Positions 1-38,918 of a stretch of DNA of 38,918 nt are shown here, piece after piece. This stretch comes from an uncultured Nitrosomonadales bacterium (lineage in GTDB: Bacteria > Pseudomonadota > Gammaproteobacteria > Burkholderiales > Gallionellaceae): positions 1 to 38,918 of the forward strand of contig CAIOSY010000052.1 of assembly GCA_903861075.1 (NCBI GenBank), written 5' to 3'. The notes beneath the pieces are model-generated. The model worked only from the letters and a program-made list of their open reading frames with translations, searched no databases and had not been told where the DNA came from. Position 1 is the stretch's first letter. Every line of letters begins with the position of its first letter. Made by a program: the position numbers and the translations under genes.

Positions 1-141
1 ATCGAGTCCGCGCGAAACCCGACGTTGTTGTTCGAGTTGCCGCGCACATTGTTGAGATTCAACGCCCACACCCCGGCGGTCGTCCCGTTGTCCCAATTGA
101 ACGCCGCGATCGGGCACATGTTAAGACGCCTCCCGTTTATC
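1..141. repeat. Direct terminal repeat, identical to 38778-38918; probably assembly overlap of a circular molecule
   Basis: Bases 1-141 read identically at 38778-38918. 141 nt equals a common maximum assembler k-mer, so this is probably one locus seen twice. Confidence 0.9.
8..121 (-). other. DGR template repeat (TR), same locus as 38785-38898
   Basis: About 113 bp aligned to 563-676. 9 of 11 differences are at T on the + strand (A in coding sense). Encodes CPIAAFNWDNGTTAGVWALNLNNVRGNSNNNVGFRA with Asn (AAC/AAT) codons at variable sites; lies between avd and RT. Confidence 0.93.
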
Positions 142-531
142 AATCTGACGATCGGCAACTATCCAGCCGCCGATCATTCTGCCCAATTCATCCACCAGCC
201 GAGACAAAGCGAGATATCGATGCTCGCCCAGCTCGGTTGGTGATTTTTCAGTGCGACGACCATCTTTAAACTCGAAATAGCCCATTGTGTATGCCAGACG
301 TATCAGCATGCGCAGCTGTTCATGTCGTGTATCAAGGTTGGTCATCGCCGTTTTCTTGTGATAGCGCTTTTGCGCCTCAACGATGAAGCCGTACACGTCA
401 TAGGCCGCGCGCCGAATTTCGAGCGCGAGACCATACTTTTCGTGTTTCGGAAAGTGGTTGAGGTGGATATTCATCAGTTTTGCAAACTCCATAAACTTCT
501 GATCCAATTTGGCTTCATCGTGCAGGCCCAT
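121..531 (-). CDS. avd: DGR accessory variability determinant (Avd/bAvd-like four-helix-bundle protein)
   Basis: 136 aa helical, basic protein between the VR gene and the TR; the stop codon abuts the TR. Typical DGR position. Confidence 0.85.
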   Translation of the reverse strand: MGLHDEAKLDQKFMEFAKLMNIHLNHFPKHEKYGLALEIRRAAYDVYGFIVEAQKRYHKKTAMTNLDTRHEQLRMLIRLAYTMGYFEFKDGRRTEKSPTELGEHRYLALSRLVDELGRMIGGWIVADRQIDKREAS

Positions 532-548
532 CGCTATCGCTCAGGCCC

Positions 549-2672
549 TCAGAGATACAAGGCCGCGCGAAACCCGACGTAGCTGCTCCAGTTGCCGCGC
601 ACATTGTTGAGATTAAACGCCCACACCCCGGCGGTCGCCCCGTCGGCCCAACCGAACGCCGCGACCGGGCACATGTCGTTCGGCCTGTAGTCGTACAAAT
701 AATCGTTACCGAAAGCATTTGTACCGCCAACCCCAGCCGCCAAAGGCAAGCCAGCGCCTGTTGCTGCCCAGGCATTGCCGCTAGTCGCTGCGTCAAATAC
801 CTGACTTGCAGATCCGATCAGTGTTGTGCGACTCACGCCGGTTGCCCAGAGTGCACCATATGCTGTGCCCAGGTTATCGAAGTTGTTGGATAACGCGGGA
901 GATCCCCATGCATCGGTTGATAACGTATTGCCTGCGGTTAGGCTCTTCATTGCAACGCTGGTTTTAGGCAGGTAATAGCTGGCAGGAACAATGGATACAG
1001 CGGTCGCGGCTGCTGGAATGGCTACTTTCAGTCCTGGTGCTGCAATCACAATAGTGCCGGGTGCCGCGATACCGGTTGTGACGGCATATTGATTTGTATC
1101 ACCGGCGAACACGATCATGTCTCCGGCCGCAACCGTTCCTGTTCCGGTGATTAACGGGATAGATGTGGTTCCGATCGCATACCCGGTTGCCGCACTGGTA
1201 TAGCCAGCGCCGGTGCTAGTTGGCACCTGAGCCGTCAGACCTATACAGATTTCATAGATCACGCCATTGAGGTCGGCAATGCCGCAGTTCTGACCGTTAT
1301 GAGTCGTCTTTGCAAACTGGTTTGCGCTGCCGGTTTTTGGCGCGGTTGGATAAGTTACGTTGCCTGCTGATGTATATAAGATCGCTGCATCGTTTGCATC
1401 GCCCAGCGCGTTGTTGTTGCAGCCCTTGGGAAAGTTATTTGTTGCGTGGTACCACGCGCACCATGTTGTCGACGTTGAGGATTGTGCGTGGGCCAGCGCC
1501 AATAGTGCCAACATTTTGTTGACGAACAAGCTGCCGGGGAAGAAGTTTGCTCCGCGTGTTTTAGCTGCTGCGATCACGCCGGAATAGTTGTTTGCAGGCG
1601 CACCGGTTAAGCCGCCAATTGGATTGTTTGCGGCGGCAGTTGAAAGTGGATTTCCGCCTCGGATGCTGGATGCGGTACCGTTATTATTCGAACACTTGTA
1701 CTTATCAACAAACACCCCGGCCTGAATATTTCCGCCATCATAGAATGCGCGATGCAGCGCATATCCGGCCGTATTGGCAGCAGCGACGTTTGCGTAAAAA
1801 CTGAATGGCTTTACGTCAACCGCATTAATCGCCAGCCCGTTTGCGCCGGTTCCAAATTTATAGAAAAAGGCTGGTATCCAAACCATGACAGAGCCGTCAG
1901 AATATTGGTAATTGCCGTAATCATCCGAGTATGGATTAAAGGTTGCGTTGCTTAATGGATACATGCCAAAGGGCGGTTGGGGGCAAATACCAGCCCCAAA
2001 TCCAGCAGCGCCCGCAACCCCGATATCATTCATCGCCACTGAGTAGTTTGTTACAAGCGGGATTATCGGCGTCCAGTTTGCAGGGTCATTTGCCGGATCT
2101 GTCGGCTTTGCTCCTGTTGTTTTAGCGCGGTAGGTCAGTAAATTTATTGGCGACCAAACCACGGCTCCGACGTTGTACGATCCACTTGCCCATGATGCAG
2201 CCCCTGCGCCGGCCAGCGCGCTGGTTGAGCTTGCTGCTGCCTCTGCTGCCTTGGCGATGGCCAGTGTAGTCTGCGTAGCTACCGTTATGGCATTCGTCCC
2301 TGTAGTGACAGCATCTGCATGCGTTGATGTGACATCTGCTGCCGTCAGCGCGGCTTTGGCGATTGCAATTTCTGCTTGATTAGCTGTTGTAACAACATCG
2401 GCATGCGTCAGCACAACATCTGCTGCTGTCAGCCCGGCTTTGGTAGTTGCGATTTCGGCTTGTGTGGTGGCCGTGTTAGCCCGGCTAGTTGCCTGAGCAA
2501 GAACTCCATCCGCCGCTGTATTGATTTCCGCATTTTTATCTGCGATCAGCTTGGCTGGGCTACGTACAGCTGCGCCCCCCATCGTCACAGACGTTGCTGC
2601 ATCACCCTGTGACCATGCGTGAATCAGTGCTGCGTCTGCTACCAGTTGATCAATATCGGTTTTTAAACTCAC
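549..2672 (-). CDS. DGR-diversified tail fibre / receptor-binding protein with C-terminal C-type-lectin-like variable domain
   Basis: 707 aa; Ala/Thr-rich N-terminal repeats; C-terminus CPVAAFGWADGATAGVWAFNLNNVRGNWSSYVGFRAALYL aligns with the TR translation; downstream of tail genes. Confidence 0.88.
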   Translation of the reverse strand: MSLKTDIDQLVADAALIHAWSQGDAATSVTMGGAAVRSPAKLIADKNAEINTAADGVLAQATSRANTATTQAEIATTKAGLTAADVVLTHADVVTTANQAEIAIAKAALTAADVTSTHADAVTTGTNAITVATQTTLAIAKAAEAAASSTSALAGAGAASWASGSYNVGAVVWSPINLLTYRAKTTGAKPTDPANDPANWTPIIPLVTNYSVAMNDIGVAGAAGFGAGICPQPPFGMYPLSNATFNPYSDDYGNYQYSDGSVMVWIPAFFYKFGTGANGLAINAVDVKPFSFYANVAAANTAGYALHRAFYDGGNIQAGVFVDKYKCSNNNGTASSIRGGNPLSTAAANNPIGGLTGAPANNYSGVIAAAKTRGANFFPGSLFVNKMLALLALAHAQSSTSTTWCAWYHATNNFPKGCNNNALGDANDAAILYTSAGNVTYPTAPKTGSANQFAKTTHNGQNCGIADLNGVIYEICIGLTAQVPTSTGAGYTSAATGYAIGTTSIPLITGTGTVAAGDMIVFAGDTNQYAVTTGIAAPGTIVIAAPGLKVAIPAAATAVSIVPASYYLPKTSVAMKSLTAGNTLSTDAWGSPALSNNFDNLGTAYGALWATGVSRTTLIGSASQVFDAATSGNAWAATGAGLPLAAGVGGTNAFGNDYLYDYRPNDMCPVAAFGWADGATAGVWAFNLNNVRGNWSSYVGFRAALYL
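563..676 (-). other. DGR variable repeat (VR)
   Basis: TR-aligned 3' end of the 707 aa gene. Adenine-site changes relative to TR give N>G, D>A, N>D, T>A, I>V, N>S, N>S, N>Y; invariant IMH-like end ccgcgcgaaacccgacg. Confidence 0.92.
2308..2475 (-). repeat. Two 84-bp (28 aa) tandem direct repeats in the fibre N-terminus
   Basis: AEIATTKAGLTAADVVLTHADVVTTANQ / AEIAIAKAALTAADVTSTHADAVTTGTN, with matching DNA repeats. Confidence 0.8.
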
Positions 2673-2681
2673 GGGTTACTC

Positions 2682-3158
2682 CTACAAATAGTTTGCCGAA
2701 GGCAGGGTTAAATTAGTTAATGTATGTAATGCGGGGGAGCTATGAGTTAGCTCATCCGGGAAATAGGTCAGTGAAACATCAAGATAGTCCTGCGTCAGTC
2801 GCGGGACGCTGCGGACTTCAAGTGCTGCACTAACCTCAAAATTCATCCCGCTGATCGCGGCCGACTTGGGTGGCGCTTCAAATTTGGCCTCCATCACTGT
2901 CGTACCCATTCCGTTTGCCAGGTGGATGTTGAACCAGTTCTGTCCGTCCAATATGCTCAGGTGATACCAGGACTCAAACACCGCGAATTCGCCCTGGGTA
3001 AAATGCCACTTGACGGTAATTTTTGATGGGAAAGTAGTGAACTGCCGACGAGTACGGGCGGGTCCGGACTGCATTTGCGTACGCAGGATCGGGTCGGTCG
3101 GCTCAATGCCATAGCCGGATTGCAGCGGCGTAGGTAGCGTGGCAGGAAAGTCAGCCAT
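2682..3158 (-). CDS. Putative minor tail protein
   Basis: 158 aa ORF directly downstream of tape measure in tail operon order. Confidence 0.55.
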   Translation of the reverse strand: MADFPATLPTPLQSGYGIEPTDPILRTQMQSGPARTRRQFTTFPSKITVKWHFTQGEFAVFESWYHLSILDGQNWFNIHLANGMGTTVMEAKFEAPPKSAAISGMNFEVSAALEVRSVPRLTQDYLDVSLTYFPDELTHSSPALHTLTNLTLPSANYL

Positions 3159-5689
3159 TATCTGAGCGCCCCAGCTGCACGGTTCAGGCCAAATGTCTGT
3201 GACATGACATTACTTAATGATCCGGTACCGCGAGATACGTTATTAGCGATCTTGCTTTCGATTTGCTCAATGATGAGATCGAATCCACCGCTTGAGTTTT
3301 GCTGTGCGGTTGCAGTTACCTGCTGGCTGGCGTTATTGACGACATTTACTTGCAAGGTGACCTGTGCGCCGCCCGCCCCTTGCGCAACGACTCCAAGCTT
3401 GCCATTTGCGCCACGCGTCAATGGCATAATAGCTTCGGGTCCAGCCTCACCCATAATCCCATTGGCAAAGCTTCCGCCGCTGGCAAACTTGAATGGTGTT
3501 GGTGTATTGAAAATTCCATTGGTGAAAGCGCCGCCATCCTTGAAGGCATGTACGCCACCGATATCAAACGCATTGCCGTTGGCGGATATCATTGCGCCAG
3601 GTAGATTTAAAGATGCGTCTACTCCAGAAGCGGATGCGCCACCGCCTCCCCCAAAAAAACTGCTAAACATATTTGCAATTCCGCCACCTGAATTCATTGC
3701 TGCGGAAAGTGGTTGAGTTATTGATTGCTGAATCTGAATACGGATTAAATCATTGATGATGTTATCCGCTAGGCTAGCGAAATCAAGCTTTCCGGTGCGG
3801 ACGAATTTCACCAATGCATCTTCCATTCCCTTGAATGCTTTGGTGAATAGGCTTTCTGATTGCTTGGCTACATTGCTGATTTCATCCAGGTAATTGCGCA
3901 ACGCAACTTTTGCGCCATATTCCCAAGATGAGTTATTTTTCTCAACTTGGAGTCGCAGTTCTTCAAGTTTTTGTTGTTGGTTAGTCTCCGCTTCATTAAC
4001 TAGGTTTAGTAATAATGTCCTGGCCTCTTCAGTCATTGCCAGCTTAGCAAGCTCCTCACGTGCTCGCCCAGCGCGAACTGATACGGCGTCCAGATTATCG
4101 GCATGCTGTTTATCGGTGGCTGACATCATCGCATCATTTAAAGTACGATTTTTTTTATTGATATCAATTCCAAATTCTTGCGTAAGTGTATTGACGATTG
4201 CTCCGCCTTTAGCGCTATCCTCTACAAGCTTTTGCAGATCTTTGCGATCTTTCAGCTCCTTATCCAAAATATCAATTTGAATTTGCGCTGTATTCGCTGC
4301 TGTAAGCTGCTTAGCCGTTGCGCCATCACGCGCCATCTCAAGCAGTTTAATTTGTGCGGCAGTATTTCCTGCTAACTCAGCTTCCTTGCGGAATTGCTCA
4401 GCACGCAGATTTTTTAAAGCGGTATCGTTTGGATCTGTTTTAGTTGGTTTTGTCGCAACTGGGTCTTGATATACAGGAAATTTATTTGCATATTCCGCAC
4501 CCATTGATTTTGATATAGCCAGCAAAATAGTGTTTCGCTCTCTGGCTGTTTTATCTGCATACTCAAGATTGATGCGCTTTTCCTGCTCTGCAAACTCTTT
4601 GGTTCTTTGAAGATGTGTTTGTGCATCAGCTTCAATAGCTGCTCTGCGTTCGGCCAATGAATCACGAAACAAAGAGGTTGATTTCAATATCGACTGCGTT
4701 TCTGCATCATTTGCTTTTTGTATTGCATCAAACCCAGCTTGATCAAAATGAGCAATTGCAGCTCCAGATGCTGCGGCATAACCAATCGCATTTCCTAACA
4801 ATCTAAATCCAGCTGCTGCACCCATTACGGAATCTGCAATGAAGGCAAGTACATCAGTGATATCTGATCCCCATTTTTTCAACTGCCCGTTCTGACTCAT
4901 CTCTGAGATCTGACCGTTGGAATCCTTCAAATGCGCTGTGAATGCCATAACGCTAACAGTTAGCGCTTCATTGAATGTTTCACCTAAAATTACTTTGTAA
5001 TTTTCTTGATAGCGAGTCATTGAATTGAGCTGTTTTCCTGCTGTTCCTAATGCAGCCTCATAAGTTCCCGCAATACCTTCCCCTTCCTTCATGACTGAAT
5101 TTAGAACGGCTTGCGTTTTTTCGGTTTGGGTTAATGAGGTACTGGTCTTGCCAAGTGTTGCGGCATAGGCTGCATAGGATTGCTCCATGCTGACATTAAG
5201 GCCGATTGTTCTTAAAACGTCGGTTTGTCCTGTTTGAATTCCATGAATCATGTTAGCGAACGCTTCAGATGAATTCATGTTCCCGATAACTGCGGCGTCC
5301 TGAGCGATACGCGCTAACTTATTGGCGTTGGATAGATCAATATGCGCCTGAACAAGTCTAAGGGCCTGCTGCCTAGATTCGATCATGCTAATCCCGGCCT
5401 TTTGCATTCCCTCGGCTGCGGAATTCATTTGGTCGGCGGTATATCCGGAATTATTCCCGACAATTTTCATTGAAACGCCTAGCGTTTCATAGCGAGCCTG
5501 AAGAAGTGATGCTTCTTTGATATATCCAGTAATTGCAGCGACAGATAATGCCCCAGCCAATGTCCCAGCAATTCCAGAAAATGAGATCATCTGCTTTGAA
5601 ACGCTGTCAAGTGAATCGCCCAGTGTGCGCAATGCGCGATCAGCCTGCTCGGTTGCAGCGGTAATGACGATTTTAGTTTCGTTAGCCAT
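3158..5689 (-). CDS. Tail tape measure protein
   Basis: 843 aa; N-terminal tape-measure-like region, Gly-rich C-terminal region with GEAGPEAIMPLTRGANGKLGV motif; longest gene after the tail chaperone. Confidence 0.9.
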   Translation of the reverse strand: MANETKIVITAATEQADRALRTLGDSLDSVSKQMISFSGIAGTLAGALSVAAITGYIKEASLLQARYETLGVSMKIVGNNSGYTADQMNSAAEGMQKAGISMIESRQQALRLVQAHIDLSNANKLARIAQDAAVIGNMNSSEAFANMIHGIQTGQTDVLRTIGLNVSMEQSYAAYAATLGKTSTSLTQTEKTQAVLNSVMKEGEGIAGTYEAALGTAGKQLNSMTRYQENYKVILGETFNEALTVSVMAFTAHLKDSNGQISEMSQNGQLKKWGSDITDVLAFIADSVMGAAAGFRLLGNAIGYAAASGAAIAHFDQAGFDAIQKANDAETQSILKSTSLFRDSLAERRAAIEADAQTHLQRTKEFAEQEKRINLEYADKTARERNTILLAISKSMGAEYANKFPVYQDPVATKPTKTDPNDTALKNLRAEQFRKEAELAGNTAAQIKLLEMARDGATAKQLTAANTAQIQIDILDKELKDRKDLQKLVEDSAKGGAIVNTLTQEFGIDINKKNRTLNDAMMSATDKQHADNLDAVSVRAGRAREELAKLAMTEEARTLLLNLVNEAETNQQQKLEELRLQVEKNNSSWEYGAKVALRNYLDEISNVAKQSESLFTKAFKGMEDALVKFVRTGKLDFASLADNIINDLIRIQIQQSITQPLSAAMNSGGGIANMFSSFFGGGGGASASGVDASLNLPGAMISANGNAFDIGGVHAFKDGGAFTNGIFNTPTPFKFASGGSFANGIMGEAGPEAIMPLTRGANGKLGVVAQGAGGAQVTLQVNVVNNASQQVTATAQQNSSGGFDLIIEQIESKIANNVSRGTGSLSNVMSQTFGLNRAAGALR

Positions 5690-15621: not shown

Positions 15622-16959
15622 TCACTTTGAAGTCGGGAAAGGTTGGCCTGTTGCTGCGTGATATGCTCGTTGCCCGGTATAGTCCTGCCACCGTCGAACG
15701 ATCACATCTACATATTGAGGTGATAGTTCCGATAATCGAGCCTTCATTCCGAGACGCTCCGCAGCCATTAGCGTACTTCCCGACCCTCCAAACGTATCCA
15801 GCACGATGTCCCCGCTCTGCGCACTGTTGCGTAACTGGCGCTCGATTAGTGCAACCGGTTTCATAGTTGGATGTACATCGTTTCTTTGTGGTTTGTTTTC
15901 GACGATCACCGAGGTCAGTAATTCCTCTATTTCCGCCTTTCCGTCTACTACGAAGATCCCCCCCCCCAAGTGTAATTCCCATTTCCCATCGGCGCGCTTT
16001 ACAAACGGTGAGCCGTCCCCCATCTGCTCAACGGTGGTCTTTTTTCGACCGCCGAACCAGCGGTGTGCGCCGCCCTTCTTCCATCCGTACAGAATAGGTT
16101 CATGTATCCACTGGTAATCAGAACGTCCAAGCACCAGTGTGTTCTTGCGCCAAATCACTACGCCGGAAAGCTTGAAACCGTTGTTCAGCATCTCGCGAGT
16201 GAAGTTTGAGCGCTCGGTCTCAGCGTGCGCGACGTAGATAGCTGCGCCTGACTTCATAGCGGAATAGGCAGTGCGGTAAAAATCGCCGAGGAATTTGGCA
16301 AAACTGGCATCGTCCATGTCGTCGTTATCAATCTTTCCTGCAGTTGTTTCGTAGGCTACGTTGTATGGCGGGTCAGTCCAACATACGTCGGCCATTTCTC
16401 CGGACATCAATGCATCCAATGCGGTCTGTGTGGTGCAGTCGCCACATATCACGCGGTGCTGACCAAGCAGCCAGATATCGCCAAGCCCGCTAACTGGCTC
16501 AACTACCACGGGCGGGCAGGATTCTGGGTCTTTTTTAGGATCAAGCACGGCATCGCCAAGTAGGTCATCCAGGTCTTCATTGCTGAATCCGAGAAGATCC
16601 AGCGCAAAACCGTCTTGCTGTAACTCTTTAATTTCAGTCGACAAAATATCGTTATCCCATCCGGACTGCAGGGCAAGCTGGTTATCAGCAATGATGTAGG
16701 CGCGCTTCTGGGCGTCTGTGAGCCAATCTACCCGCAGACAAGGTACGGACGCCATCCCAAGGCTTTGAGCCGCCATAACGCGCCCGTGACCGGCAACGAT
16801 TCCGCCCTGCCCATCGATCAGCACTGGATTTGTAAATCCAAACTCCTTGATGCTGCGTGCAATCTGGGCAATCTGCTCTTTGCTGTGCGTGCGGCTATTT
16901 TTGGCATAAGGTACCAGAGCGGCACAACTTAACATCTCGATTTTTTCCTGAACTTTCAT
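15622..16959 (-). CDS. ParB-domain DNA methyltransferase fusion
   Basis: 445 aa; ParB-like PYAKNSRTHSKEQIAQIARSIKEFGFTNPVLIDGQGGIVAGHGRVMAA; methylase DPPYN and DTFGGSGSTLMAAERLG motifs. Confidence 0.9.
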   Translation of the reverse strand: MKVQEKIEMLSCAALVPYAKNSRTHSKEQIAQIARSIKEFGFTNPVLIDGQGGIVAGHGRVMAAQSLGMASVPCLRVDWLTDAQKRAYIIADNQLALQSGWDNDILSTEIKELQQDGFALDLLGFSNEDLDDLLGDAVLDPKKDPESCPPVVVEPVSGLGDIWLLGQHRVICGDCTTQTALDALMSGEMADVCWTDPPYNVAYETTAGKIDNDDMDDASFAKFLGDFYRTAYSAMKSGAAIYVAHAETERSNFTREMLNNGFKLSGVVIWRKNTLVLGRSDYQWIHEPILYGWKKGGAHRWFGGRKKTTVEQMGDGSPFVKRADGKWELHLGGGIFVVDGKAEIEELLTSVIVENKPQRNDVHPTMKPVALIERQLRNSAQSGDIVLDTFGGSGSTLMAAERLGMKARLSELSPQYVDVIVRRWQDYTGQRAYHAATGQPFPTSK

Positions 16960-28588: not shown

Positions 28589-28802
28589 CACGACAAAATC
28601 ACGACAAACGACTGCAACATATTGATTTAATAAGGCACTAGAGTCCTCTTCTGGGCACCACGTATTATGTAGTAAACATCAACAAAGCCAGCATCTACAA
28701 CGATTGCTGGCTTTTTTGTGTCTGCTTTATTGTGCTTTATTTGCATTGTTTTGGCTCTATTTGTTATTGTGTCACGACATTTTCACGACATCATTCACGA
28801 CA
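28589..28802. other. Putative attP region
   Basis: CACGACA repeats at 28589, 28600 / 28773, 28784, 28796 flank a tRNA-3'-end-like core tagagtcctcttctgggcacca (28639-28660), next to integrase. Confidence 0.6.
28684..28717 (+). terminator. Intrinsic terminator
   Basis: aaagccagca-tctacaacgat-tgctggcttt followed by T-run. Confidence 0.75.
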
Positions 28803-29779
28803 TGGCAACAATTCGTAAACGCGGCGCGGCTTGGCAGGCTCAAGTATTCATGCATGGAGTCCGTAAATCAGGAACTTTCCCCACAAAAATCGAGGCCCAA
28901 CAATGGGCTGCTCAAGCTGAGGGCGCGATTCTAACAGGGAAGACGGACACAATCCCAGATAAAACATTTGCAGACCTTTTGAATCGGTACGCTGAAGAAG
29001 TTAGTCCAACTAAACGTGGGGCCCGATGGGAAAAAATACGCATTGCACTGACATGTCGTGATCCTGTCGTGAATGTGAAACTATGCGACCTTGATAGTCG
29101 GGCAATAGCAACGTGGCGCGACCGCAGGCTTACTCAGGTATCACCAGCCAGCGTGCGGCGCGAATGGAACCTATTGAGCAGCGCCTGTACCATTGCCGCA
29201 AAGGAATGGATGTGGTTAAATGAAAACCCAATGAGCGAGGTTAAGCGCCCCGCTCCACCAGATTCAAGAGACAGGATTGCTACACCGGATGAAATTGATC
29301 GGCTGCTTTTTGCAATGGGATACAGCAAGGAATCTGCGCCGGAAACAATAACGGCTCGTGTTGGTGCTGTCTGTTTATTTGCGATTGAAACGGCGATGCG
29401 CGCCGGGGAGATTGCCGGGCTAACGTGGGATAGGGTTTTGCTCGAAAATAGGCATTGTAAGACTTCAGGTAAAACAGCAGCAGCCCGCCGCGATGTTCCG
29501 CTATCCGCCGAAGCTGTCCGCATTATTGAGCAAATGCCAAAAGAACATGCCACAGTTTTTAATGTGACTACTGCACAGATAGATGCGTTGTTCCGCAAGG
29601 CAAAAGGTAAAGCGTTGGTTACGGAGCTGCACTTCCATGATCTGCGCCATACCGCGATTACAATGCTAGCGCGTAAGCTTGGGGTTCTCGACCTTGCGCG
29701 GATGGTTGGGCATAGAGATTTGCGAATGCTACAAATTTATTACAACCCATCTGCAGAGGATATCGCAAGCAGACTTTAA
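28802..29779 (+). CDS. int: Tyrosine recombinase / phage integrase
   Basis: C-terminal HFHDLRHTAITMLARKLGVLDLARMVGHRDLRMLQIYYNP; start MATIRKRGAAWQAQV. Confidence 0.92.
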   Translation: MATIRKRGAAWQAQVFMHGVRKSGTFPTKIEAQQWAAQAEGAILTGKTDTIPDKTFADLLNRYAEEVSPTKRGARWEKIRIALTCRDPVVNVKLCDLDSRAIATWRDRRLTQVSPASVRREWNLLSSACTIAAKEWMWLNENPMSEVKRPAPPDSRDRIATPDEIDRLLFAMGYSKESAPETITARVGAVCLFAIETAMRAGEIAGLTWDRVLLENRHCKTSGKTAAARRDVPLSAEAVRIIEQMPKEHATVFNVTTAQIDALFRKAKGKALVTELHFHDLRHTAITMLARKLGVLDLARMVGHRDLRMLQIYYNPSAEDIASRL

Positions 29780-31996: not shown

Positions 31997-32265
31997 AAAA
32001 TTATTTCAGCAGATCCCCATATCGGATCTGAGCAAACGAAATTAATCAGATTGTCGGCATAGACTGGGGACCAGTCGGGCAGCGGAACGTCTACTATTGA
32101 CCTTGCGGATGACATTGTGCGATTACGTGCAGCCTCTTCGGTGTCATACGACTCGACGATGATCTGCATACGATGCGTGGACATATCAAGATGAAACTCG
32201 GTAACGGCATGAAATTCAACTATTCTGGAGTCCGGCAGAATTTTTGAAATTTTTAATATATTCAT
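31993..32265 (-). CDS. Hypothetical protein
   Basis: 90 aa, overlapping neighbours. Confidence 0.45.
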   Translation of the reverse strand: MNILKISKILPDSRIVEFHAVTEFHLDMSTHRMQIIVESYDTEEAARNRTMSSARSIVDVPLPDWSPVYADNLINFVCSDPIWGSAEIIL

Positions 32266-35200
32266 ATTTGTACCAATCCGTGAGCTAGTTGAGAAGCGTT
32301 GAATGAAGTTATTCTTGCCATTAGGTCGCTGAACTCTTGTCTTAGTACAACTCCGTTTGGGTTAAAAAACTCTATAATTGCCTTCCCTGGTGAGCCATTT
32401 CCGCCAATTCCTCTACCACCACCACCGCCACCACCACCGCCACTACCAAATCCAGACGCACTAGCGCCGGATGTGCCAACCCCGCCATTTCCGCCAACGC
32501 CATACGGAGAACTTCCCCCTTTTCCGCCAGTTGAACTGCTTGGAGCTGTCGATCCGCCGATGCTTCCGCCAATTCCTTTTCCTGCCCCTGTGAATGGCCC
32601 TCCCCCACCAATTCCTCCAGAGGCAGTAATTAGTCCGGCAATTCCGGTACTCTCTCCGTTAGCGCCGGTTGAATTTGTATTTCCTCCATAACTTGGTGCA
32701 AATGGATAATCTACATATAGCGTACTACCCGCGCCATAGTTGCCAACAACGAGCGTATAGGTGGTTCCGGCAATTAATCCATTAAAAACAGCTGTAATAT
32801 CCTGCCCCGCACCGCCGCCACCAGCGGCTCCTGTTCGAGTAATATCCGATCCGCCGCCTCCACCGCCACCGCCGCCAATACATGTAATGCGTAATGAGGT
32901 AAAGCCAGCGGGGACTGAAATTGTGTAAGTTCCACGTGAAAAAACTTGAGTTGCATAAACGACGCTACTCAACGTCCCCGCAGTTAACATCCCTGCAAAA
33001 GTCCCAGTCGCTCCGGTGATATCCGCCCCGGCAAGCGATCCGCTTACTGACAAATTTGTCCCGTTAATTTCCGTTGCGGTAACTGAATTGGCTTCAATCT
33101 GTGCTGCGGTAATGGTTCTCGCTGCGATCTTATCTGCCGTGACCGCATTAGCTGCCAGCTTCGGGGTACTGATACTGTTGTCGCTGATCTGTGTTTCGGT
33201 GATTAATGTTGTCGCAGCGATATATTGCGCGGACTGGTTAAGCGCATCGGTGCCCCACTGATCGAACCCTGCCACGATCAGATAATAGGTGGTGCTACCC
33301 GGATTTAGGTCGATGCTGACCAGGCTATTCGGGCCTTCATATTTCAAGGTTGATGCGTCCGGCGTAAAGCCATCGACGGTCGATACCCACACGCATATTC
33401 CCGCAAAATCTGCGACGGAAGGGCGTTGGTATTTCACGAGTAGTGAAGCCAGCAATCCGGTTACTACCACGTTGTTGAGCAGGCCGATCTGTGGATTAGT
33501 GACAGTCAGAGTAGCCCATCCGTCTGACGTAATTCCGTTACCATTTCCGCGCACCTTAAAGATCAGATCGCGCCATGGTCCACCGTCCGTCTTTGCATCG
33601 CTGGACGAGTAACTGAAACTATTCAGGCTCACTACCCGCGAGCGGCGCAGAACGCCTGCGGCCCAGACCTCGACGGTGTAATTTAGTATGCGTGCCGTAC
33701 TGTTCCATGTGATGTTGCATACCGGCCCTGTGAATGCTTCAGCCAGTGCAAGGCCGGTCACGTCCGATGGTGCCGCCATCACTGCGCCTGCGCTGCCGTT
33801 CCAATATGCCCATGCCCCGCGTGTCATGCCGATGGCGGCCACGCGGATTTGTATCGTACCCGGCTGTACCGGAAGACTGATGCTGGTCGACCCAGAGCTT
33901 CCGGAACCTGTCCAAGCGATACCGTCTGCCGATTGCTCAATCAGATAATGATCGGCTCCAGATGCTGGCTGCCAGCTGATTGCCAGCACTGGGCTGGCAG
34001 GGGTTCCGCCCTGCACCACAGATAGTCCGATCACAGCTGGTACGGTCGGAACTTTTGGCAATTGCCATGCGGCCAGTGGCGCGGGCACGGTACCACTGTC
34101 GGCCTGATGTACCAGTGGATCTTCATTGATCAGTGCTAGTTCTACCTGGTTGCTTCCGCGAGGGCGGGCTGAGGTAACTAGCGCCAGCTGTCGGTACGCG
34201 ACCCCGGTACCGAAGGTAAAATAGGTTCGTTCTTCGTCGCCGCCAGTATAGGGGGTGATATCCGGCATGCTGGCCAGAACCGCATGATATTCATCGACAC
34301 CAGCTGATGCTTGCCATGGGCCTGAGAAACTTCCATCGCGCCGGCGCAGACCGAAATAGTGCGCCTGCCCAGCAGTCCATGTGACAGGTTCAGATAGTGT
34401 CAGCGTGCGGGTTGCCGAATCCCATCCGTTAACTTCCCCCGCCTGTGCGCGCGTCAGGCGTTCGCTAGATACCGCAACCAGATCGCCAAATGTTGGAATG
34501 AATCCTTCCATTTCGGTCGTAAAGGTAATCGGCTTACGGCGGTATCGGTTACACGCAGCAATGTACATGCCTTCACGGTACGCTTGATCGTGTGAGGTGC
34601 ATCCGAACAGCTGCACCTTGACCGGGGTCGCTGATACTGATCCTGGAAGCGCGGCGGTCACTTCGGCATTGCTCCAGGTAGTTGCATTGAAATACTGTAC
34701 GGTCACCGCGTCGGCGGTGGCCTCCGTCGGCATCAGGTAGTCGATTTTTAGTGTGCCGCGCGCCGTATTGCGCGGTGAGAACATCGCTACCGGCACAGAT
34801 TGCGCCTGATCGCGCACGATCTGCACAGCCCCGCCTTGCTGGTAGGGTTTAGCGCGACCGACACGAGCGATCTGAGTCAATCCCTCCCACAACGTCACGG
34901 TATTGTCGAAACGTCCATCAAAGGTATCGCCGCGCGTTGTCCAGATCGAATCCAGCGCATAGAGTTGTTCTAGGGGAATCAGTGCATCAGCCAGCTTTCC
35001 GCCGTAATCTGCCCGAGCTGCATCGGCGAATGCCCAGGCGATAGAGCGCGTCGCAACCAGTGCGGACCATCCGGTGGTCGGATTCCAGGTCGGCAACTTT
35101 CGGGTCGCAATCACCCCAATCTTTCGCGCGGCTTGAGCGGAAAGATTATTTGATGCCTTCATGCGCATCGCAATCAGCGTCAGGTTACCGTATTGCTGAC

Positions 35201-36341
35201 TACCTGGCAGATACGCGCGCAACCCTACCCAGCTAAGATCGTGTCCGGCGCGACTGGAGGTATCTTGCATATCAGTACGCATCAATCGAACTTGATAGCG
35301 TGCTTGAGTTACGGCATAACGATAGCTGCGGCGCTGTGCGGTGTTAGTAGCGGCGGTGATTGTTTCGGTACCCAGCGTCACCCAACTACCAAGCGATGTT
35401 CCATTGCTATCAATTGATTGAGCTTCTACGGTAAATGTGATGCTTTTACTACTCAAACCGCCTGAGTCTGTTGCGTAAAATAAACCCTTTGGACAGACGA
35501 TATCGATGCCGAGGTAGTTGGCCGACGTGCCCGATGCATTCGCGACAAAAGGTCCGAGACCAACATCGGTAAGCGCTGTCTGTCCGGATACTACTATCGA
35601 CGTGACAACATTCGAGGGGAATAATGAAACGGTTCCTCCAGGAGGAATAACCTCATAACTTATTTCCTCAAAACTGGATATAGGTGTGTCGGCAATATTG
35701 ATCGACTCAATACTGTACTCACCTTGTCCTAATACCAGTAACTGATATAGGAACTGCTCATTGCCGACAAACTCAGCATAAGGTTGAGCGGCAAAATCAG
35801 GATATGCAAGATGTCTGCCATATTGCACTGGGATTGATGCGCCAAGGCGCGCGCTATTTCCCTGAGCACCAAGCGAATAAGTCGGGCTAGGCGCGGCAAG
35901 TGTGGCAGCCTGCTGCGTAGAGGGTGGGCGAGGCGGCGGTAGGATAGCATTAACTAGTGCAGATCCAGCCATAAATGCAGCGGTTCCAAGCATTGCCCCG
36001 CCTAGCGTTCCGGCCATTCCAGCAGGCATCCATAAATCAGCTCCTGCGCCCATCGTAAAATAAGTGAGCGCAATCATTGCGACCATTTGCAGCGGATTGC
36101 TTCCACCACCACCGCCTCCTTGCGGAAGAGTGACAAATGCCACGATGTCACCATGCAACGGGCGTCTTCCCCAGCCAGTACGCAGCACCGGATCGCCGTT
36201 AACCAGGCAGATGAAAGGTAAATTCGTTTTAGGTGCAAGTGCAGAAATTCTCACTCGTCTCGATCGTGTGCTGATACTTCGATCCTGCAACGGATTGAAC
36301 GGGTTGCGCGCATAAACGACTGTGTAATTTTTGGCGGTCAT
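32262..36341 (-). CDS. Tail tip / host specificity protein J-like central fibre
   Basis: 1359 aa; N-terminal gpJ-like region with ...NAILPPPRPPS, repeated FnIII-like segments, Gly-rich C-terminus. Confidence 0.88.
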   Translation of the reverse strand: MTAKNYTVVYARNPFNPLQDRSISTRSRRVRISALAPKTNLPFICLVNGDPVLRTGWGRRPLHGDIVAFVTLPQGGGGGGSNPLQMVAMIALTYFTMGAGADLWMPAGMAGTLGGAMLGTAAFMAGSALVNAILPPPRPPSTQQAATLAAPSPTYSLGAQGNSARLGASIPVQYGRHLAYPDFAAQPYAEFVGNEQFLYQLLVLGQGEYSIESINIADTPISSFEEISYEVIPPGGTVSLFPSNVVTSIVVSGQTALTDVGLGPFVANASGTSANYLGIDIVCPKGLFYATDSGGLSSKSITFTVEAQSIDSNGTSLGSWVTLGTETITAATNTAQRRSYRYAVTQARYQVRLMRTDMQDTSSRAGHDLSWVGLRAYLPGSQQYGNLTLIAMRMKASNNLSAQAARKIGVIATRKLPTWNPTTGWSALVATRSIAWAFADAARADYGGKLADALIPLEQLYALDSIWTTRGDTFDGRFDNTVTLWEGLTQIARVGRAKPYQQGGAVQIVRDQAQSVPVAMFSPRNTARGTLKIDYLMPTEATADAVTVQYFNATTWSNAEVTAALPGSVSATPVKVQLFGCTSHDQAYREGMYIAACNRYRRKPITFTTEMEGFIPTFGDLVAVSSERLTRAQAGEVNGWDSATRTLTLSEPVTWTAGQAHYFGLRRRDGSFSGPWQASAGVDEYHAVLASMPDITPYTGGDEERTYFTFGTGVAYRQLALVTSARPRGSNQVELALINEDPLVHQADSGTVPAPLAAWQLPKVPTVPAVIGLSVVQGGTPASPVLAISWQPASGADHYLIEQSADGIAWTGSGSSGSTSISLPVQPGTIQIRVAAIGMTRGAWAYWNGSAGAVMAAPSDVTGLALAEAFTGPVCNITWNSTARILNYTVEVWAAGVLRRSRVVSLNSFSYSSSDAKTDGGPWRDLIFKVRGNGNGITSDGWATLTVTNPQIGLLNNVVVTGLLASLLVKYQRPSVADFAGICVWVSTVDGFTPDASTLKYEGPNSLVSIDLNPGSTTYYLIVAGFDQWGTDALNQSAQYIAATTLITETQISDNSISTPKLAANAVTADKIAARTITAAQIEANSVTATEINGTNLSVSGSLAGADITGATGTFAGMLTAGTLSSVVYATQVFSRGTYTISVPAGFTSLRITCIGGGGGGGGGSDITRTGAAGGGGAGQDITAVFNGLIAGTTYTLVVGNYGAGSTLYVDYPFAPSYGGNTNSTGANGESTGIAGLITASGGIGGGGPFTGAGKGIGGSIGGSTAPSSSTGGKGGSSPYGVGGNGGVGTSGASASGFGSGGGGGGGGGRGIGGNGSPGKAIIEFFNPNGVVLRQEFSDLMARITSFNASQLAHGLVQI

Positions 36342-36748
36342 GTTGCATCACCGGTAAATCGATAAAATTCAAGCGGATGCCAGCCCATACGTTTGAGCAC
36401 CGGCAGAGCGGTGCAGACTACGCCGGCGCCACGCACTGCATGCAGAATACGTCCGCCTTCAATCTCCAGATAAATACCTACGTGATCAACCTGATTTCCT
36501 TTATGCGTCAGCACGCAGTCGCCATCAATCGGCCCGTCGATCAGTTCCCAGCGGGATTTTTCAGGGTGGTTTTCGAAAGCGTCACTAACGGCCGCCAGAT
36601 CATCTGCGTCAACGCTGATGATCGGCAACGCACGACCATAATGCGCACGCTGTACATGGCGTACCAGCGCCCAGCAATCAAATGCATCAGGTCCCTGAGC
36701 GCCGTTTTCCCAAGGTAGGCCGATATAGTCAATTGCCCAGTGTGTCAT
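36338..36748 (-). CDS. NlpC/P60-type tail assembly protein (gpK-like)
   Basis: 136 aa; IGLPWENGAQGPDAFDCWALVRHVQ, NQVDHVGIYLEI. Confidence 0.85.
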   Translation of the reverse strand: MTHWAIDYIGLPWENGAQGPDAFDCWALVRHVQRAHYGRALPIISVDADDLAAVSDAFENHPEKSRWELIDGPIDGDCVLTHKGNQVDHVGIYLEIEGGRILHAVRGAGVVCTALPVLKRMGWHPLEFYRFTGDAT

Positions 36749-37269
36749 TGCACCAGCCCTGGGAAACGCGTGGCGCTGTAGCTCTCGCCAGGAAACGCCT
36801 TGTTCGCATAATCGCCCAGCTGCGCCCGCGCAGTCAGGCGGAACTGATCGGCGCTGATAGCGGTGATGGTTAGCGTCATCGGCGGATTCATCTGCGGTGC
36901 CGTCAGGTCGGTCGATAGATACGGGCGATACGTGACCTGCACCTTGTCGGTGGTGGCTAGCGCGGCATTGATGCTGTCCTCAATCTCCATACTCACGTTA
37001 TCGATGGTGATTACTACTTCGGGTGCGACACCCGCATCTACAGTCGGCAGCACAATATCGAATGAATACCCGACAAAGAGCACGGCAGCACCGGGATCAG
37101 ATGGGGCGCTATCTTCTAGTGTGCAGATATGATCTGCATGGTCCAAAACTACCCGCAGCGGCTGGGTAAATGCTGGATGGCGAAATTCAAGCGTAGTCAG
37201 CGTCACCTCATCCGATGGTGCAGCGGCATAAGCCTCTTTGATCGCCTGAGATAATGAGGTATTTGGCAT
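36745..37269 (-). CDS. DUF1833-like tail protein (gpL position)
   Basis: 174 aa; LSQAIKEAYAAAPSDEVTLTTLEFRHPAFTQPLRVVLD. Confidence 0.7.
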   Translation of the reverse strand: MPNTSLSQAIKEAYAAAPSDEVTLTTLEFRHPAFTQPLRVVLDHADHICTLEDSAPSDPGAAVLFVGYSFDIVLPTVDAGVAPEVVITIDNVSMEIEDSINAALATTDKVQVTYRPYLSTDLTAPQMNPPMTLTITAISADQFRLTARAQLGDYANKAFPGESYSATRFPGLVQ

Positions 37270-37270
37270 T

Positions 37271-37693
37271 TTACAGTCCTAGCTTTGCTTTTTCAGCACG
37301 ACCCCATGCCCGGCAGTCTTCGGCAAATGCGTTGTAGCTATTGAATTCGGTTGACGGTGCGGTACGCAGCAGCTTGATTTCATCTGCTGTCGTATAGCGT
37401 TCAGCAATTGCATCTGCAACGCGCTGATTGATCAATCGGATGTGCGGACTCGCCACTTTCAGTTCTGCAACAAGCTCGGGTGCAAGAATGGCAGGATTGA
37501 TAATGCTCGCAGCGATTTCTTCCGGCTGTTCAGTCGGTAGAGTGACGCCATCTGGCAGACATACATAAGTCACCCCATCAGGTAGGGTGGCTAGTTCAAC
37601 GCCTATCTGGTGATGATCCTCGTCTTCCTGAAGGCGCAATGTCCGCGTTACTTGCTGGTCGATATATTTTTTGTAAGAGATGATGGTCGGCAT
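37271..37693 (-). CDS. Hypothetical tail-operon protein
   Basis: Start MPTIISYKKYIDQQVTR at 37693 with aaagga RBS; overlaps the 3' end of the RT gene by 98 nt. Confidence 0.6.
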   Translation of the reverse strand: MPTIISYKKYIDQQVTRTLRLQEDEDHHQIGVELATLPDGVTYVCLPDGVTLPTEQPEEIAASIINPAILAPELVAELKVASPHIRLINQRVADAIAERYTTADEIKLLRTAPSTEFNSYNAFAEDCRAWGRAEKAKLGL

Positions 37694-38645
37694 AGTGTTT
37701 TTCCTTTGATAAACGCAGCATATGCTGCAAAGAATGGGTGCGCTGCGCGTGCCCAAGAATTGAAATGGCTGAATCTGTTTTTCCGTTGCGCAAGGCAACG
37801 CGGTAGTTATAAAGGCTATGGCGGCGAATAAATCGCTTGCTCACCCAGGTGCGATATCCAACGAAGTTAATGCCGCGAGATACGGGTGCTATGGTTGATT
37901 TTGATAATTCAAGGCTCAACTCATCCCTGATGAAAGTAATGATGCGTGTCTGACATTCAATAGCGTAATCATGAGTAATTCCAAACAGCACAAAGTCATC
38001 TACATAACGGCAGTAACGTTTGATCCCCAGCTCACGCTTAATAAAGTGATCAAGCGGATTCAGGTAGATCAGCGCATAGAGCTGTGACAGCAGGTTTCCG
38101 ATAGGGATGCCAACCGACTCACCGTGATCAGCGAACGCCATCATCAGATCGACCATGCGCGCGTCTTTGATCTTGCGCTCAATCAGTCTGCGCAAAATAA
38201 CGCGATCGATGCGGTAAAAGAACTTTCTGATATCAAGTTTTAGCGTGTAACTTCCGATCGGGCTGGCTTGCAAGGCGGCCTGCGCATAATCGGCTGCTTT
38301 GTGCGTGCCCTTGCCGATTCGGCATGCGAATGACTGATCAATAAATATCCGCTCAAAGATTGGTGATATCACTCGATATATTGCGTGCTGCACCACCAAA
38401 TCGCGGAATGCTGGTGCGTAGATTGTCCGGCGCTTCGGCTCGTGAACCGCAAAAGTGTAATACTGGCGCGGCGAATAACTTCCATCGCTCAGCTCACGAT
38501 GTAACTCATCCAAATTACTGGCTAGATGTTTCTCAAACTTAAAGCAGGCACGTTTGCCGTGCTTATGCCGGGCAGCCATGTGAAATGCATGCCGCAATGC
38601 TTCCGGCGTTAATGTGCGTGCATATAAATTTCCGACGCGCTTCAT
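37596..38645 (-). CDS. DGR reverse transcriptase
   Basis: 349 aa; YTLKLDIRKFFYRID, GIPIGNLLSQLYALIYLNPLDHFI, KRYCRYVDDFVLF (YxDD), SKSTIAPVSRGINFVGYRTW; next to TR and avd. Confidence 0.95.
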   Translation of the reverse strand: MKRVGNLYARTLTPEALRHAFHMAARHKHGKRACFKFEKHLASNLDELHRELSDGSYSPRQYYTFAVHEPKRRTIYAPAFRDLVVQHAIYRVISPIFERIFIDQSFACRIGKGTHKAADYAQAALQASPIGSYTLKLDIRKFFYRIDRVILRRLIERKIKDARMVDLMMAFADHGESVGIPIGNLLSQLYALIYLNPLDHFIKRELGIKRYCRYVDDFVLFGITHDYAIECQTRIITFIRDELSLELSKSTIAPVSRGINFVGYRTWVSKRFIRRHSLYNYRVALRNGKTDSAISILGHAQRTHSLQHMLRLSKEKHYADHHLLQKIYRPASNADIAPSGRRGSSPDRR

Positions 38646-38784
38646 ATCGTCTGACCTTCGAGACGATGACCCGCCCTACCAGAAAGGCGGAAGCCATCCG
38701 ATTTCGCCGTGAATTTCTTCACGCGCCGGAAAGCGTCTCCCTTGATTCCACTTTGACTAAATTTCAGTCTGTGAGGTATCGAGT
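38646..38784 (-). other. TR-RT spacer with hairpins (Sp-like RNA region)
   Basis: Hairpins atcgtct/agacgat (38646-38667), ccgcc/ggcgg (38671-38690), cgtgaa/ttcacg (38708-38723), gact/agtc (38755-38769). Confidence 0.6.
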
Positions 38785-38898
38785 CCGCGCGAAACCCGAC
38801 GTTGTTGTTCGAGTTGCCGCGCACATTGTTGAGATTCAACGCCCACACCCCGGCGGTCGTCCCGTTGTCCCAATTGAACGCCGCGATCGGGCACATGT
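38785..38898 (-). other. DGR template repeat (TR), second view of 8-121
   Basis: Identical to 8-121 through the 141-bp terminal overlap. Confidence 0.93.
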
Positions 38899-38918
38899 TA
38901 AGACGCCTCCCGTTTATC

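Follow-up and report, generated by a model that had tools for sequence, protein, structure and literature searches.

The question raised by this locus is whether a pair of similar repeats at the end of a phage contig, together with the genes around them, makes up a complete DGR and, if so, which protein it diversifies. The original prediction, made from the letters alone, placed all the components of such a system, namely, the template repeat (TR), the variable repeat (VR), Avd, and the reverse transcriptase (RT), within bases 1-676. The window, that is, the whole stretch of DNA analysed (38,918 bp), is the entire contig C52, part of a 2.3-Mb draft genome. It carries an exact terminal repeat of 141 bp (bases 1-141 = 38778-38918) and closes to a circle of 38,777 bp; 141 is also the largest k-mer that a widely used metagenome assembler takes by default, so that the repeat fits closure of the assembly graph better than a biological end. 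The joint of the circle falls on the TR, and because the contig is circular, the RT gene lies directly 3' of the TR, though at the opposite end of the window. Thus, the predicted placement holds for the TR, VR, and Avd, whereas the RT lies outside the predicted interval. On the minus strand, the order is target gene, hairpin, Avd, TR, and RT (Table 1).

The phage looks temperate and lambda-like, as judged from its gene set, which includes an integrase (28718-29779), repressor-like genes together with a CII-like activator (20.5-22.1 kb), primase, terminase, portal, capsid, tape measure, a gpJ-like tip protein, and endolysin. Beside the terminase genes, a DNA methyltransferase fused to a ParB-like domain is encoded (15622-16959, minus strand; phrog_498). 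The search for relatives of this phage within the genus and order of the host gave only distant portal matches, so that binning is the sole basis of the link to the host. Four genomes of the host genus (G009, G010, G014, and G018) contain distant SQ-motif (DGR-type) RTs of their own and, in G018, a pair of 120-nt repeats with 86% identity is located nearby.

Table 1. Coordinates of the DGR cassette and adjacent features in the window
Feature	Position	Strand	Remarks
Template repeat (TR)	8..120	-	full repeat 5-121; terminal duplication holds a second copy, 38782-38898
Avd accessory protein, 136 aa	121..531	-	Pfam bAvd 60.9 bits, cut-off 40
Hairpin right after the target stop codon	524..548	-	GC-GATA-GC cap 533-540; overlaps the avd start
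Target (variable) protein, 707 aa	549..2672	-	starts with GTG; C-type-lectin-like in the C-terminal part
Variable repeat (VR), 3' end of the target gene	563..675	-	9/23 template adenines, 2/90 other bases changed
Tape measure protein, upstream of the cassette	3158..5689	-	Pfam Tape_meas_lam_C 100.9 bits
Tail-tip genes (DUF1833, NlpC/P60, gpJ-like), downstream of the cassette	32262..37269	-	
p140, conserved 140-aa ORF	37271..37693	-	begins within the RT gene, at its 3' end
DGR reverse transcriptase, 349 aa	37596..38645	-	GNLLSQ, YVDD; Pfam RVT_1; phrog_1423
Terminal duplication of bases 1-141	38778..38918	.	circle of 38,777 bp after closure

Comparison of the window with itself detected a single long direct repeat (5-121 against 560-676; 117 nt, 90% identical, spacing 555). 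The TR and the VR differ at 11 of 113 positions, and these differences are concentrated in coding adenines, with 9 of 23 changed (plus-strand T at 26, 28, 31, 83, 89, 91, 97, 98, and 110), compared with 2 of the 90 other positions (G34 and C60; Fisher p = 5.8e-6). All the counts and positions given originally were reproduced, and a further A-to-C difference at 7/562 had been rightly omitted, as it falls on the edge of the repeat and is seen again in the relatives displayed. The C-terminus of the target, ...GVWAFNLNNVRGNWSSYVGFRAALYL, with ...NSNNNVGFRA in the template version, is likewise as first described; the stop codon lies 11 nt beyond the end of the VR. The proportion of changed adenines in the window is below the family average of ~54%. 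No further copies of the VR were found in the host genome assembly. The TR itself sits in an open 84-aa frame (38642-38896, minus strand) that shares 4 nt with the start of the RT gene; such TR-like frames match PHROG entries without assigned function, so they have been annotated as genes elsewhere.

The protein components are readily recognizable. In addition to the Pfam hit, Avd matches the phrog_3206 Avd (1.5e-23) and scores 76 bits with the NCBIfam Avd model, slightly below the cut-off of 80. The best match of the RT among solved structures is the BPP-1 bRT (PDB 8ub7; 3.2e-50), followed by group II-type RTs (2.4e-19). Failure of the RT to join the DGR clade had been named in advance as a finding that would speak against the system; in the tree, the RT groups with the BPP-1 bRT and other GxxxSQ RTs, split from the group II-type (PQG) RTs with 100/99 support, and only this split is used, not the inner order, because the tree is small and includes several long branches. 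The second RT in the assembly, on contig C32, was considered as part of the system and rejected, given its PQG motif and its place among the group II-type RTs in the tree. The hairpin in the window has an interrupted stem, and its stability compared with shuffled sequences is only z = -1.5; the evidence for the hairpin is its conservation, in that 46 of the 47 distinct loci have a GC-GNNA-GC cap immediately past the target stop codon.

Scanning IMG/VR with the RT yielded 80 related loci, in 69 of which an automatic repeat scan gave a TR/VR pair. Altogether, in 71 pairs (one each from the window and Pseudomonas phage Bise, and 69 from IMG/VR), changes affect 1022 of 1889 template adenines, compared with 75 of 6048 other positions. 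An even spread of the differences over the four bases, the outcome that was originally said to be incompatible with the prediction, was looked for in these pairs, and an adenine bias was found instead. We then delineated groups of sister phages with an identical TR and zero differences both in the 600 nt upstream of the VR and in the Avd region of 435-467 nt. Within these groups, VR differences number up to 22 and, save for single template-T sites, all lie at template adenines; this is the pattern that repeated mutagenic homing would predict. Such adenine-directed turnover of the VR, between flanks that are unchanged, means that this DGR lineage is active in nature. L009 and L010, the phages nearest to the window, have VRs that differ by one T only; for the immediate lineage of the window, activity is therefore inferred. 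Together, the bias in the 71 pairs, the VRs of the sister phages, and the RT clade bear out adenine-directed mutagenic homing as the right reading of the repeats.

The rare changes at other bases are themselves uneven. Among 63 distinct loci, non-adenine changes inside the repeats affect T at 26 of 1292, C at 12 of 1659, and G at 11 of 1915 positions, that is, 2.0% for template T against 0.6-0.7% for C and G (T versus C+G, p = 1e-4), and in the sister groups with identical flanks they occur at T only. Most of the template-T changes (20 of 26) are T-to-G, in a spectrum that may mix enzyme bias, protein selection, and shared ancestry; in a survey of 948 DGRs, non-adenine changes were common, and T changed mostly to C (PMC6642488). 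In the NAG context, all 80 of 80 changed adenines became G, which agrees with published work on the BPP-1 bRT, where G misincorporation in this context was near-absent (PMC12875486). An apparent difference in spectrum between AAC and AAT codons in the pooled counts was discarded because, at one homologous codon, the numbers were too small.

The target protein gave no match to Pfam or NCBIfam, and, as a single sequence, none to the PDB, so that an alignment profile was required. With a profile of 30 sequences, the match is to TaqVP, the DGR variable protein of Thermus aquaticus (PDB 5vf4; E = 1.5e-6), in the variable region. The AlphaFold2 model of target residues 208-707 (mean pLDDT 66) matches the same structure over the whole domain (E = 2.9e-8, probability 1.00), and Mtd and formylglycine-generating-enzyme folds follow as weak later matches. 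From these profile and fold matches, the target is a C-type-lectin-like DGR target, nearer to TaqVP than to Mtd, the protein proposed for comparison at the outset. The target and TaqVP are ~17% identical, and the target is longer, with an alanine-rich N-terminal part. Because the gene sits between the tape measure and tail-tip genes, a role in host contact is likely. A tail fibre is plausible, given the tail-region location and the modelled TaqVP-like fold, and the protein presumably binds the receptor.

The cassette resembles the BPP-1 DGR (mtd-avd-TR-brt) in gene order, in having one TR and one VR, and in the presence of Avd; the two RTs are 37% identical. The BPP-1 hairpin, with an 8-bp stem and a GAAA loop, occupies the same place after the target stop codon, and the GNNA loop is common to both. 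The differences are in the surrounding tail genes, in the target, which is nearer to TaqVP than to Mtd, and in p140, which follows the RT where BPP-1 has bbp4. Much closer RTs are found in uncultured freshwater phage contigs from IMG/VR (L008-L010; 91-92% identity) and in phage Bise (63%). L009, L010, and Bise share the same target-Avd-TR-RT cassette, which in Bise, unlike in the window, is flanked by contractile-tail genes, with no detectable p140. Two cultured strains, Halopseudomonas formosensis JCM 18415 (L114) and Spongiibacter marinus DSM 17750 (L119), also carry related cassettes.

Homologues of p140, whose family has no name as yet, were identified in 95 loci, and in all 20 mapped loci p140 lies directly downstream of the RT, among tail genes that are mostly without a match. 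Searches of Pfam and PDB gave nothing convincing, and there was no match among 50,697 phage records; 6 of 56 members have weak matches to PHROG tail-assembly chaperones. The predicted structure is confident (mean pLDDT 96), and no solved fold relative of the model was found. A separate scan with p140 recovered more complete cassettes and several loci in which the target is followed by p140 and the RT is missing. The opening codons of Avd are fused to the last codons of the RT at the junctions of L151 and L177/L178 (L151:3903-4001, L178:1800-2069), and these junctions are scars of ~1.5 kb deletions of the DGR core; the target gene, hairpin, and p140 are retained. Because the loci that lack the RT keep both genes, p140 apparently goes with the target and not with the RT, and our best guess is that it acts as an assembly chaperone for the target. 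Tentatively, and with somewhat more doubt than belief, we suggest that the target and the assembly-chaperone-like p140 form the co-inherited unit, to which Avd-TR-RT would be a removable diversifier, and that phages losing the latter would keep a working, locked receptor-binding protein. Two RT-less sisters, L160 and L172 (852-aa target), differ at 12 VR sites compared with 2 of 1388 positions outside; DGR activity was rejected as the source because, with the TR of L016 as reference, the changes are not directed at adenines, and they perhaps reflect recombination between stored alleles.

We are highly confident that the locus is a complete, probably functional DGR of the BPP-1 type in a temperate lambda-like tailed phage. 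By homology, the TR would be transcribed, and the RT with Avd would copy the TR RNA into cDNA, misreading adenines; this cDNA would then take the place of the VR at the end of the target gene, with the 3' end common to both repeats and the hairpin just past the stop codon as guides. Every round would re-randomise the C-type-lectin-like surface at the target C-terminus.

Three other readings were weighed against this one. The first, that the repeat arose by ordinary segmental duplication, with a group II-type or retron RT nearby and mismatches falling on adenines by chance, could appeal to the NCBIfam search, in which the best model for the RT is a group II maturase, at 117 bits, far under the cut-off of 300. 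We regard this reading as extremely improbable: p = 6e-6 in the window alone, the same bias recurs in the 71 pairs, the RT belongs to the DGR clade, Avd is present, and the comparison of sister phages refutes it. Much less far-fetched, but still unlikely, is that the DGR parts are real but belong to a copy that is inactive or in decay, its VR being the frozen product of earlier homing that is now drifting. The copy has fewer changed adenines than most relatives, along with two non-adenine differences, and relatives exist that lost Avd-TR-RT by deletion; against such decay, the RT (GNLLSQ, YVDD), Avd, TR, and hairpin are all intact, and up to two non-adenine differences are usual in active relatives.

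The remaining alternative accepts a true DGR but denies that its target is a tail fibre or receptor-binding protein; the diversified C-type-lectin-like protein would instead be a different virion component or be secreted. The target gave no match to a tail-fibre domain, and its partial PHROG matches include a head protein besides a tail protein; nevertheless, the position of the gene between the tape measure and tail-tip genes and the tail-assembly-chaperone matches of p140, weak as these are, favour the tail, and, in clades 1, 4, and 6, viral DGRs chiefly target tail structure proteins (PMC8144416). We consider a non-tail target improbable, slightly more so than decay of the copy, and retain the reading of a probably functional DGR with a target that is likely tail-borne.

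This type of DGR is already known, and the phage described here is one more well-supported example, which adds a TaqVP-like target within a lambda-like tail region. The set of sister phages provides a clean natural record of mutagenic homing, with VR changes almost only at template adenines. The RT-less relatives with deletion scars illustrate how a phage can lose the diversifier yet keep the target gene and p140 and, because they keep both, the role of p140 is directly testable.
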